In this document: in pieces, positions 38,448-44,287 of the stretch
How positions within the stretch are numbered: the stretch's first letter is position 1
Layout of the letters: each line of letters starts with the position of its first letter
Origin: Candidatus Alloenteromonas pullicola
Lineage (GTDB): Bacteria; Bacillota_I; Bacilli_A; RFN20; CAG-826
Direction of reading: 5' to 3'
DNA length: 47,185 nt
Assembly (NCBI GenBank): GCA_018714785.1
Contig: DVMV01000004.1
Coordinates: forward strand, 1 to 47,185
The notes under the pieces: model-generated
What the model saw: only the letters and a program-made list of their open reading frames with translations
Database searches by the model: none
Told to the model about the DNA's origin: nothing
Made by a program: the position numbers and the translations under genes

Positions 38448-38637
38448 CGATAATGGGGGCGCTCGCCCCCTTTTCAAATAGAAAAAAGTATCTTTGGGCT
38501 GTGCCCCTTGGTAGAATAAGGGCGTACCGAAGGTACTCCGCCTTTGCTCTATAGCGCTGCTTAACGATATAAACGACAGTTGGTTACGCGTGGGCGGAAC
38601 GCGCTTTCGGACCCAAAACAAAGGAGATTCCGTCTAT

Positions 38638-40212
38638 ATGCCACTTCTTCTCTCCGAGGGCGTTTGGATTGCCCTCGTCGCCTCTTTGCCGGTCATTGTA
38701 GCCGTCATTGCGGTTCTGCTCACCATCTTCCTCACCACCCACAAGGCCAAAGCCGCCGGCAAGTCTGCCGAATCGATTGTAAAAGAGGCCAAAGTCAAGG
38801 CCGAGCACATCATCAAGAACGCCGAGATCGACGCCAAGCAGGCGGCCTTTGAGGCCAAGCAAAAGGCCGATAACGAGATCCGCGAGCGCAAATCTGAGAT
38901 CAGCGCCTTGGAACAGAAGCTCACCCTCCGCGAGCAGTCGATCGATGCCCGCGACGCCGCCCTTGTCTCCAAGGAGAACAGCCTCGACCAGAAGCAGGCC
39001 TCGCTAGACCGCCAGATCGAGTCTTATAAGAACCGCCAGGCGGAGCTTGACACCAAGATTGACGACATCATCCGCGAGCTCGAGAAGGTTTCCGGCATGT
39101 CGACCCAGCAGGCCCACGACGAGATCATGAGCCGCGTGGAGTCGAAGATGGCGGTTGAGATCGCGACCTTCATGAAAAACGCCGAGGACGAGGCCAAAGA
39201 GAAGGCCCAGGCCAATGCCGTCGACCTGCTTTCGCTCGCCTGCCAACGCTATGCCCAAGACGTCACCACGGAGCGCACCGTCTCGGTCGTCGCGCTTCCC
39301 AACGACGAGATGAAGGGCCGCATAATCGGCCGCGAGGGCCGCAATATACGCGTGCTTGAGCAGGAATTGGGCGTCGACCTGGTCATCGACGACACCCCCG
39401 AGGCCATAACCGTATCCTGCTTCGACCCCATACGCCGCGAAATCGCCAGGCGGACCCTTGAGTACCTGGTTAAGGATGGCCGCATCCAGCCGGGAAGGAT
39501 CGAGGAGGTCGCCGCCAAATGCAAGAAGGAGGTCGCCGACATCTCGCAGAAGTACGGCGAGGAGGCCTGCTTCAAGCTTGGCCTGCCGAAGATCAACAAG
39601 GAGCTTGTCGGCTACATCGGCAGGCTGCATTTCCGCACCTCCTATGGTCAAAATGCCCTCGAGCACTCGATGGAGGTCGCTTACCTTTCCGGCTTGATGG
39701 CCGGCGAGCTCGGGCTCGACGTTAACCTGGCCAGGCGCGCTGGCTTGCTCCACGACATCGGCAAATCGGTCGACTTCGAGATGGAGGGCAGCCACGTCCA
39801 GCTCGGCGCCCAGTTAGCCAAGAAATACGGGGAATCCGACGTCGTCATCAACGCTATTGAGAGCCACCACGGCGATGTTGAGGCAAGATACGTCATCTCC
39901 CACCTAGTGGCCGCCGCCGACACCCTTTCCGCTGCCAGGCCGGGCGCCCGGAGCGAGACCCTCGAGACCTATGTCAAGCGCATCGAGCAGCTAGAGGCCC
40001 TCGCCAAGGGCTTTGATGGCGTCTCTCAGGCCTATGCCATGCAGTCTGGCCGCGAGATCCGCGTCATGGTCATGCCGGACAAGGTCTCTGATTCCGAATC
40101 GATATTGCTTGCCCAGCAACTCAAGGACAAGATCGAGTCCGAGATGACCTATCCTGGCCAGATCAAGGTTTCGGTCATCCGGGAATACAGGGCCATTGAG
40201 ACCGCAAAGTGA
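38638..40212 (+). CDS. rny: Ribonuclease Y
   Basis: N-terminal TM, coiled coil, [48 protein letters not shown] 38638. Confidence 0.97.
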
Positions 40213-41021
40213 TGAGAATACTTTTCCTTGGTGACGTAACCGGACCGATTGGCATCGCCGCGATAAGGAAGAGCCTGCCGCTTCTTCGGGAGCGGCTTTT
40301 GCCTGACTTCGCGGTGGTTAACGGCGAGAACGCTTCCAACGGGAGAGGCATCACCCGGGCCGATTACCTATCGCTAAAGCACGCCGGGGCGGACGTCATA
40401 ACCCTTGGCAACCATTACCGCGACAAGAAGCAGATCGATTCGTTCATCGGGGAATATCCCGACCTGCTTCGGCCCGCTAACCTGGCCTGCTACGACAAAG
40501 GCCGGGGTTATGGGGTATTCGAGGCCAACGGGAAGAAGCTCGGCGTGGTTTCGATGATGGGGCCCGCCTTCCTGAACGAAGAGCTGAACAGCCAATATGA
40601 TTGCATGGAGGAAATCCTCTCTTCAGGCGCCATGCCAAAGTCGGTCTTCGTCGACTTCCATGGCGAGTCGACCTCGGAGAAAGAGCTTTTCCTGCATTGC
40701 TTCGCCTCGCGGGTGAGCGCGATCATCGGCACCCATACGCATGTGCAGACCCACGATGCGACGATCTATAAAGGAACCGCCTTCATGGCCGATGCCGGGA
40801 TGTGCGGCGAGCATAATTCGATCATCGGCGTTTCGGTCGAGTCTGCTATGAACAAGATCGTGCGGCAGCTTGGAAACCCGTTTTGCTGCAATAAGGAAGG
40901 GGCGATGATCGTCGAGGGATGCCTAATCGACGTCGACGAGGAAAACGGCCGGGCGCAAAGCATTAAGTACATCCGTCTGATAGACGGGGAGGAATGGAAG
41001 GATGAGCCGCTGCATTATTAA
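40212..41021 (+). CDS. ymdB: YmdB-like metallophosphoesterase
   Basis: [51 protein letters not shown]. Confidence 0.93.
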   Translation: MRILFLGDVTGPIGIAAIRKSLPLLRERLLPDFAVVNGENASNGRGITRADYLSLKHAGADVITLGNHYRDKKQIDSFIGEYPDLLRPANLACYDKGRGYGVFEANGKKLGVVSMMGPAFLNEELNSQYDCMEEILSSGAMPKSVFVDFHGESTSEKELFLHCFASRVSAIIGTHTHVQTHDATIYKGTAFMADAGMCGEHNSIIGVSVESAMNKIVRQLGNPFCCNKEGAMIVEGCLIDVDEENGRAQSIKYIRLIDGEEWKDEPLHY

Positions 41022-42741
41022 GTCTCTGCCGGATATGGCCAAGGCCAGGAACCGGGTCGATCAGGCGAAGGTCATTTACGACGATTTTAAGCCGTCCGAG
41101 GCTTTGCTTTCCTTCGCAAAAGGCAAGAAATACCTGGTTAAGACCTTCGGCTGCCAAGGCAACGTGCGGGACGAGGAGATCATATCCGGGTATCTGGAGA
41201 GGATGGGATACGTCCCTTCTGCGGACGAGGAAACCGCCGACATCGTGATAATCAACACCTGCGCCGTCAGGGAAAACGCCGAGGATAAGGTCTACGGCGA
41301 GATCGGCAAGTTCAAGGCCAAGAGCCTTCAGGATCGAGATTTCGTCCTTGGGATATGCGGCTGCATGATGCAGGAGGAGGGCAAGGCGAAGAAGCTTCTG
41401 GCCTCGTATCCGTACATCGATTTGGTTTTCGGCACCCATAACATCGTTGACCTCCCCGGGCTTCTGGAGGAGCACATCAAGACCCATAAGTCGCTGCTCG
41501 ACGTCATTTCCTATCCAGGCGACATAATAGAGGGCCTGCCTTCGATAAGGCTTGATCCTTACAAGGCCTACGTCAACATATCCTACGGGTGCGATAAGTT
41601 CTGCACCTACTGCATCGTGCCTTATACCCGGGGAAGGGAGAGGTCGCGCCCGATGCAATCCATTATCGAGGAATGCAAGAAACTGGTCGAGCAGGGATAC
41701 AAGGAAATAACCTTGCTCGGGCAGAACGTGAATTCCTATGGAAAGGACTTCCGCGACGGTACCAGCTTCGCCACGGTGCTTGAGGAAGTCGCCAAGCTTG
41801 GGATACCGCGCCTGCGCTTCATGACCAGCCATCCGTATGATTTCTCGCTGCCGATGCTCGACGTAATCGCGAAATACCCCAACATCATGAAATGCATCCA
41901 CCTGCCGGTTCAGTCCGGCTCGACCGAGGTGCTGCGCCAGATGGGGCGGCGCTATACCCGCGAGCAGTATCTGCAGCTGGTCGAGGAAGTAAGGAAGCGG
42001 ATACCGGATTGCGCCATCACGACCGACATCATCGTCGGCTTCCCCAACGAGACGCAGGAGCAGTTCGAGGACACCCTCTCCCTCTGCGAGCAGGTCAAAT
42101 ACGACGCGGCGTTCACATTCATCTACTCGCCTCGCGCGGGGACCCCGGCCGCCAAGATGGTCGATAACGTGTCCGACGAGGTCAAGCACGAGCGGTTCGA
42201 TCGCCTGCTTAAGGTCATCGAGAAGGGGGTCATGTTCCACTCCGCCAAGATGCTGGGGAATACCTACGATGTTCTGGTCGACGGCCCGAGCAAGAAGGAC
42301 AAGTCGATGCTTTCCGGCTACACAGAGAAGGGGAAGCTCATCAACTTCAAGGGGCCCGATAGCCTTAGCGGGAAGATCGTGAAGGTCAAGGTCGTGGAGG
42401 ATCGCGCCTTCTCGATGATCGGCGAATTAGCCGACGACCCCTTCTCGATTCTGCTTAACGGGGCGTCCGCCGCTTTGAGGGGAGAGCCTGAATACCAAGC
42501 ATACCTGCAGGCCAAGAAGGCATTCGGCGAAGATGTTTCGCTGCAGGGGCTTCTTAAGGAGAAAGAAGAGGCCCAGCGTGAGCTGGCCGCCTCCGTCGAT
42601 AAGGATGATTACCCGCAGAAGAAGGCTCGTTTCCAACAGCTGGATGAAGCGGTGCAATCCCACCCCGTTTACTGCAATTTCATGTCTTCGGTCGAGGATC
42701 TGCGGGGTTTGCTGGAGCAAGCGAAGAAGGTCATCCAATGA
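41002..42741 (+). CDS. miaB: tRNA-2-methylthio-N6-dimethylallyladenosine synthase MiaB with C-terminal YlbF/YmcA-like domain
   Basis: TFGCQGNVRDEE, CDKFCTYCIVPYTRGRERSRP radical-SAM motif, TRAM, then about 105 extra residues (from about 42424) resembling Com_YlbF. Confidence 0.93.
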   Translation: MSRCIIKSLPDMAKARNRVDQAKVIYDDFKPSEALLSFAKGKKYLVKTFGCQGNVRDEEIISGYLERMGYVPSADEETADIVIINTCAVRENAEDKVYGEIGKFKAKSLQDRDFVLGICGCMMQEEGKAKKLLASYPYIDLVFGTHNIVDLPGLLEEHIKTHKSLLDVISYPGDIIEGLPSIRLDPYKAYVNISYGCDKFCTYCIVPYTRGRERSRPMQSIIEECKKLVEQGYKEITLLGQNVNSYGKDFRDGTSFATVLEEVAKLGIPRLRFMTSHPYDFSLPMLDVIAKYPNIMKCIHLPVQSGSTEVLRQMGRRYTREQYLQLVEEVRKRIPDCAITTDIIVGFPNETQEQFEDTLSLCEQVKYDAAFTFIYSPRAGTPAAKMVDNVSDEVKHERFDRLLKVIEKGVMFHSAKMLGNTYDVLVDGPSKKDKSMLSGYTEKGKLINFKGPDSLSGKIVKVKVVEDRAFSMIGELADDPFSILLNGASAALRGEPEYQAYLQAKKAFGEDVSLQGLLKEKEEAQRELAASVDKDDYPQKKARFQQLDEAVQSHPVYCNFMSSVEDLRGLLEQAKKVIQ

Positions 42742-43595
42742 TAATCGTCCTGACTGGTCCGACCGGGACCGGGAAAAGCGAACTGGCCATCCGCCTAGCC
42801 AAGGAGATCGGCGGGGTCATCGTCAACGCCGATGCGTTTCAGGTTTACGAGGAGCTTTCGATCGCCACCGCTAAGCCGACCCCGGAGATGATGATGGAAG
42901 TCCCCCATTTCCTATTCGACTTCGTCCCCCTCACCTCCTCCTATAGCGTAGCCGAATACCAGCAGGACCTTCGCAGCGCCATCGCCACCATCGGCGAGCG
43001 CCCGATAATCCTCGCCGGCGGGACCGGGCTATACATCCGCGCCGGGCTTTTTGATTACGAGTTCCCCGAAGAGGAGGAGGTCGATCTCCGCCAGTACGAG
43101 GCGATGGATGAGGAATCGCTCTACCAGGCGGCCAAGCGGTTAGACGAGGCCGAGGCTCTATCCATCCATCCAAACAACCGGGTCAGGCTGCTCAGGCTCA
43201 TCAAGATGGCCCTTTCGGGCAAAAAGAAAAGCGACATCAAGTCGAGCCAGGATCATAGGCCTATTTTCGACTGCCACTTCTTCGGGCTGCAGATCGACCG
43301 CGACGAGAATTATTCGCGGGTCGATGAGCGGGTGGACAGGATGTTCGCGATGGGGCTGGTTGATGAGGTGTCCTCGCTGGTTGGCAGATACGGCCGGACC
43401 CCAAGCGCCTTCAAGGCCATCGGGGTGAAGGAGCTGTTCCCGTACTTCGACGGTCAGATAAGCCTTCAGCAAGCCAAAGACGAGATAAAGAAAAACACCC
43501 GGCATTACGTCAAGCGGCAGCTGACTTTCTTCCGCCACCAATTCGATTTGACCTGGGTCGAGGGCATGGATGACATCCTGAGGTGCTTGCAATGA
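42738..43595 (+). CDS. miaA: tRNA dimethylallyltransferase
   Basis: VLTGPTGTGKSELAIRLAKEIGGVIVNADAFQVYEELSIATAKPT. Confidence 0.95.
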   Translation: MIIVLTGPTGTGKSELAIRLAKEIGGVIVNADAFQVYEELSIATAKPTPEMMMEVPHFLFDFVPLTSSYSVAEYQQDLRSAIATIGERPIILAGGTGLYIRAGLFDYEFPEEEEVDLRQYEAMDEESLYQAAKRLDEAEALSIHPNNRVRLLRLIKMALSGKKKSDIKSSQDHRPIFDCHFFGLQIDRDENYSRVDERVDRMFAMGLVDEVSSLVGRYGRTPSAFKAIGVKELFPYFDGQISLQQAKDEIKKNTRHYVKRQLTFFRHQFDLTWVEGMDDILRCLQ

Positions 43596-44287
43596 GCGAA
43601 ATCTTCAGCCGCGAGCTTGGGCTAATCGGGCAGCAGGGCCTTGATGCCCTATGGGGCAGCAAAGTCGCCATCTTCGGCCTCGGCGGGGTCGGGGGAACCT
43701 GCTTTCAGGCCCTCGTTAGGTCTGGGGTGGGAAATTTCCTGGTGGTTGACGGGGACGTGGTGGAGGAATCCAATCTCAACCGCCAGATACTCTTCGCTTC
43801 CTCCGATTTGGGAAAGCCAAAAGTCGAGGTGGCCGAGCGGTTCGCCGCGTCCATATCCTCCCCGAATATCAAAGCGGAGAACAAATTCCTGACCCCGGGG
43901 AACATATCCGATTTCGGCTTGGGCGGCTACGATCTGATCATCGATTGCATCGACGATCTGAAGGCGAAGGTGGCCCTATCCGAGTTCTGCCTTGCCAATG
44001 GGAAGAAGCTTCTTTTATCGCTTGGCGTCGGCAACCGCCTAGACCCATCCAAGGTCACCTATGCCAAGCTGTCGAAAACCTACAATTGCCCTTTGGGGAA
44101 GCGCCTGCGCGAGGAGCTGCGGAAGCGCAGGCTGAACCTCGACAAGCTAACGGCCGTCTTCTCCACCGAACCGGCCCTGCTTAAGAGCAAGACGCCATCC
44201 TCATCCATGATGGTGCCATCCTCTGCCGGCCTGCTTCTTTCCTATCTTGCGGTTTCATATCTTCTTAAAAAGCCCGCGAAGGTTTAA
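43592..44287 (+). CDS. ThiF/E1-like tRNA threonylcarbamoyladenosine dehydratase (TcdA-like)
   Basis: SKVAIFGLGGVGGTCFQALVRSGVGNFLVVDGDVVEESNLNRQI. Confidence 0.88.
   Translation: MSEIFSRELGLIGQQGLDALWGSKVAIFGLGGVGGTCFQALVRSGVGNFLVVDGDVVEESNLNRQILFASSDLGKPKVEVAERFAASISSPNIKAENKFLTPGNISDFGLGGYDLIIDCIDDLKAKVALSEFCLANGKKLLLSLGVGNRLDPSKVTYAKLSKTYNCPLGKRLREELRKRRLNLDKLTAVFSTEPALLKSKTPSSSMMVPSSAGLLLSYLAVSYLLKKPAKV

Follow-up and report, generated by a model that had tools for sequence, protein, structure and literature searches.

The window analyzed here, a stretch of 47,185 nucleotides from Candidatus Alloenteromonas pullicola, carries on its plus strand a miaB gene (41002..42741) whose reading frame continues well beyond the TRAM domain, which raises the question of what the additional C-terminal part is, where it came from, and whether its attachment to MiaB matters. 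MiaB is the tRNA-A37 methylthiotransferase responsible for 2-methylthiolation of i6A37, RicA and RicF are the proteins also called YmcA and YlbF, respectively, and RNase Y is an mRNA-cutting enzyme. The original prediction took the extension for a Com_YlbF/YmcA-like domain, fused to MiaB in a single open reading frame two genes away from rny, pointed to ymcA lying directly downstream of miaB in B. subtilis, and proposed a physical link between tRNA modification and the specificity of RNase Y.

The gene encodes a protein of 579 aa in one uninterrupted frame that matches both the MiaB equivalog and the Com_YlbF family. The MiaB catalytic part (41128..42429) consists of the UPF0004, radical SAM and TRAM domains, the last at aa 416-476, and all six Fe-S cluster cysteines are present, at residues 51, 87, 121 and 197/201/204. 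The TIGR01574 MiaB equivalog model matched aa 43-476 with 513.6 bits (cut-off, 355.3). The Com_YlbF model PF06133 matched aa 490-579 with 40.9 bits (cut-off, 23.9; E=3.2e-10 with the full protein, and E=1.3e-11 when the tail alone was the query), so the extension belongs to the predicted family. The domain proper begins at about aa 479 (nt 42436), and the RicA/YmcA-type region (42436..42738) has five helices and ends flush after helix 5, with no C-terminal cysteine tail. In the AlphaFold2 model of the full-length protein, the last TRAM strand (aa 472-476) and the first RicA helix (aa 480-493) are separated by a linker of only 3 residues (42430..42438), a junction that is also seen in a junction table of the fused genes. 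Neither ATG nor GTG occurs near the junction of this gene, where the only candidate is a TTG inside the domain, and no internal RicA start codon is consistent across the fused genomes in the junction table. RicA should therefore be made solely as a part of the fusion. An assembly artefact or chimera was rejected because the same architecture is found in dozens of independent genomes, including 28 others of the same genus and all 14 sampled genomes of the sister genus.

The predicted fold agrees with the family assignment. AlphaFold2 modeled the tail with a pLDDT of 94.9 as five helices (residues 6-19, 22-36, 38-56, 63-78 and 81-104 of the tail), and a Foldseek search of the PDB with this model returned Com_YlbF structures in all of the first 11 places, the best-fitting being YmcA (2PIH; TMq 0.77, rmsd 2.5) and the RicF and RicA chains of 6PRK (0.77 and 0.75). 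The E-values were modest (0.004-0.45, with probabilities of 0.99-1.00), which we attribute to the domain being small and all-helical. A profile built from the domains of this lineage matched the RicA chain with E=6e-9 and RicF with E=0.057; the Bacillus rows were left out of this PDB profile search, and a version including them was discounted as circular. We also compared two HMMs, one built from unfused ricA genes adjacent to miaB and the other from ylbF genes adjacent to rsmD. All 47 fused domains favored the ricA HMM over the ylbF HMM (mean, 63.0 versus 15.6 bits), and the tail of this gene scored 58.9 versus 9.7 bits. Apart from the fusion, the genome has one Com_YlbF gene (G000:C17, L002 1456-1824, minus strand), and it lies beside rsmD and coaD, which is the position of ylbF (RicF). 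A search of the genome for a standalone ymcA and ylbF pair thus yielded ylbF alone, and no second, separate ricA was found. The HMM scores and this synteny led us to reject the tail as a RicF, and they indicate that the tail is RicA and that RicF is encoded separately. On orthology and modeled fold, then, the tail is a RicA/YmcA orthologue: it lies 3' of miaB, with ylbF elsewhere beside rsmD and coaD. It lacks the C-terminal tail with the cysteine for Fe-S cluster 2, and the assignment does not extend to the Bacillus mode of RicT binding.

The gene order around the fusion is recA - rny - ymdB - miaB::ricA - miaA - ThiF/TcdA-like gene, all of the genes from rny onward being on the plus strand, and the distance of two genes from rny was thus correctly read. 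The rny gene (38590..40212) matched TIGR03319 with 668 bits, and a ymdB-like metallophosphoesterase gene (40209..41021; PF13277 YmdB, 267.6 bits) overlaps the start of miaB by 20 nt. On the other side, the ATG of miaA (42738..43595; TIGR00174, 235 bits) overlaps the stop codon of the fusion as ATGA. Directly 3' of miaA is a ThiF/TcdA-like E1 gene (43583-44287), for which the best NCBIfam model was TcdA, below its cut-off; it is kept in many relatives and may add a third gene for tRNA A37 modification to the operon. Fused or not, the genes keep this order in much of the family. The rny-ymdB-miaB neighborhood is therefore ordinary family synteny, and it adds no evidence for a functional link.

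How the two genes came to be one can be seen from the unfused relatives. There, the start of ricA overlaps the stop of miaB by about 4-8 nt in a different frame, often as ATGA or ATGAATAA, and because the overlap lies in another frame, a single-base change can merge the two genes. The tail thus derives from the neighboring ymcA gene. A family-wide survey of MiaB lengths found long frames in this genus (g1), in 14 of the 14 sampled genomes of the sister genus (g33), in two genomes of g30 and in one of g208, and their tails proved to be RicA domains; a class-wide Com_YlbF survey showed no other long frame among the matches listed. Close named relatives among the GTDB genomes are rumen and gut MAGs labeled Bacillales or Bacilli bacterium, for example RGIG3485 from goat rumen and UBA7278. 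In a tree built from 110 MiaB cores, with unfused outgroups, the fused architecture occupied 47 rows and required five changes, all five of which are forced by well-supported branches. These changes read as one old fusion shared by g1 and g33, three fusions in single genomes (G239, G338 and G474) and one split (G007), an order of old fusion and later split that follows from the outgroups being unfused. The old fusion is common to about 45 species of the two genera. Each of the three others is represented by a single MAG, and that of G338 can be derived by the loss of one T from a run of T, so that one missing T could mimic a fusion. In G007 (L221), which belongs to the same genus as the window, the genes are split again by a stop codon that is followed after four bases by a new ATG, and the long RicT tail described below is retained; the covalent linkage of MiaB and RicA is therefore not indispensable.

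An equally simple account of this history is that genes already co-translated one-to-one were fused by a small indel, at no cost, into two independent modules and that the fusion has no functional meaning. This account shares its anatomy with the explanation that we prefer and differs from it on whether the link matters, and we give it a little less than an even chance. The short out-of-frame overlap, the renewed split in G007 and the T run of G338 speak for it. It accounts less well for the choice of partners. No fusion was found between rny and ymdB (0/88 genomes), ymdB and miaB (0/89), miaB and miaA (0/86) or miaA and thiF (0/47), although most of these control pairs also have overlapping open frames, whereas miaB and ricA have fused about four times. 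It also has to explain why the old fusion was kept by about 45 species with its junction conserved, a (D/E)DP motif being present in nearly all members of the g1/g33 clade. The recurrence of this one fusion, with none among the neighbors, favors proximity of MiaB and RicA. Nonetheless, a free C-terminus and a free N-terminus at the right place may by themselves account for the recurrence, in which case the bias would reflect geometry and not selection. Purifying selection acts on the fused RicA domain (dN/dS of 0.03-0.32 among the closest pairs), which diverges fast, with a mean identity of 29% versus 65% for MiaB.

In B. subtilis, a heterodimer of RicA and RicF assists in passing RicT on to RNase Y (PMC6751060, PMC10470536), and RicA binds RicT through a C-terminal tail that also provides a ligand for Fe-S cluster 2 (PMC6751060). 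The present genome encodes RicF and RNase Y, and a RicF match was obtained in all 17 fused genomes tested outside the genus of the window (14 of g33, two of g30, and G474), that of G440 being weak. RicT is present in 148 of 156 family genomes. It was not found in this MAG, which is 86% complete, but 29 of 30 genus relatives carry it, so its absence here is probably due to incompleteness of the MAG. In two unfused genomes, G468 and G481 (L177 and L170), miaB is immediately followed by miaA, ricA is missing from this place and RicF was not found, while RicT is kept in a somewhat longer frame (354-358 aa). The joint absence of the miaB-adjacent ricA and of RicF is consistent with RicA and RicF acting as a pair.

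The C-terminal tail of RicA is absent from both the fused and the unfused relatives that were aligned, and the details of how RicT is bound would therefore have to be other than in Bacillus. RicT keeps its cysteine motif. Most of the RicF proteins checked in this family have a short tail with one cysteine, as in the RicF of this genome (L002 1456-1824, minus strand) and those of L009, L018, L025, L026 and L067, compared with the four-cysteine tail of Bacillus. With RicA lacking its tail and the RicF tail reduced to one cysteine, Fe-S cluster 2 would be either ligated differently or absent.

Taken together, these data make it probable that the gene encodes a bifunctional MiaB-RicA protein, which arose by a merger of frames and in which RicA serves the Y-complex while tethered to MiaB. 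The overlapping, translationally coupled miaB and ricA genes would have merged through a small frameshift. One such merger would date to the ancestor shared by this genus and its sister genus, and the family probably saw at least three others. In the product, an intact MiaB would bear at its C-terminus RicA, a subunit of the complex that sets RNase Y specificity (the Y-complex). The RicA domain would pair with the separately encoded RicF and help load RicT onto RNase Y, with the RicA half of the shuttle always working from its position on MiaB. Because the fused domain is the sole RicA found, the Y-complex of this organism would have to use MiaB-tethered RicA. We infer that the domain still assembles with RicF, RicT and RNase Y and that the MiaB part is active.

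A stronger reading is that the fusion couples the two functions, so that tRNA-modification, SAM or Fe-S status controls the loading of RicT, or the Y-complex is brought to tRNA or ribosomes. The repeated fusion of just this pair, the synteny of miaB and ricA, which is conserved and has been pointed out for B. subtilis (PMC6751060), and the finding that the B. subtilis Y-complex also targets the rRNA of mature ribosomes and acts on translation genes (PMC13230545) point in this direction. A further point in its favor is that, in this family, some RicT proteins have a C-terminal tail of 60-160 residues that is of low complexity, rich in N, Q, R, K, H and G, and positively charged (L040, L259-L268 and L275-L277, all of them outside the window). 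Such long tails are found in all g1 genomes with RicT, in both g30 fusions and in part of g33, that is, in three of the four fused lineages, and they are rare in unfused lineages; they occur in 36 of 43 fused versus 5 of 55 unfused genomes. The association suggested that the tail is a feature of a co-evolving partner. However, it was not significant when phylogeny was considered (3 same, 0 opposite; p=0.25), and we dropped the tail as such a feature. Moreover, the tail is missing from part of the fused genomes. We regard functional coupling as doubtful. Its selected form, in which A37 methylthiolation, the SAM or Fe-S state of MiaB, or its tRNA binding gates the loading of RicT onto RNase Y and MiaB is, throughout the Bacilli, a Y-complex partner that has gone unrecognized, seems rather unlikely; if it were true, RNA cleavage would follow the state of tRNA modification. 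The physical link of the original prediction has thus proved to be covalent and recurrent; tRNA modification may plausibly regulate RNase Y, and any regulatory coupling of it with RNA cleavage is speculative.

It is quite improbable that the tail, although derived from Com_YlbF, no longer has a role in the Y-complex and now serves MiaB itself in dimerization or stability, since its fast divergence and the missing RicT-binding tail are offset by the retention of RicF and RicT in nearly all fused genomes, by the absence of the same tail from the unfused ricA of relatives, and by the failure to find any other ricA for the job.

The bifunctional MiaB-RicA protein is a new domain architecture of repeated origin built from two well-known domains, not a new system, and in the open-access literature on MiaB with YmcA or Com_YlbF we found no description of such a fusion. 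Within one group of uncultured Bacilli from gut and rumen, two neighboring genes that normally overlap became one protein, and their apparently repeated, independent merging hints at a connection between the jobs of tRNA modification and of an RNase Y helper. A fusion of exactly these two that is repeated and long kept is evidence of the Rosetta-stone type for MiaB and RicA working close together. It touches on the way in which RicT is passed by RicA and RicF to RNase Y and on the reason why ricA adjoins miaB in so many Bacilli. This closeness is directly testable in B. subtilis, in which the two proteins are encoded apart and each gene can be deleted.

Compared with RicA of B. subtilis (2PIH, 6PRH and 6PRK), the fused domain has the same five-helix Com_YlbF fold, the same place 3' of miaB and a separate RicF gene, but it is covalently attached to MiaB with no start codon of its own at the junction, and it lacks the C-terminal tail and the cysteine for RicT and Fe-S cluster 2. 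RicF (YlbF) is of the same fold family; here, however, it is a separate gene, and the HMM scores exclude the fused domain from it. As in other MiaB proteins (TIGR01574), the fusion has the full UPF0004-radical SAM-TRAM arrangement with six cluster cysteines and miaA as the next gene, and it differs from them by the RicA domain of 100 residues added after TRAM.
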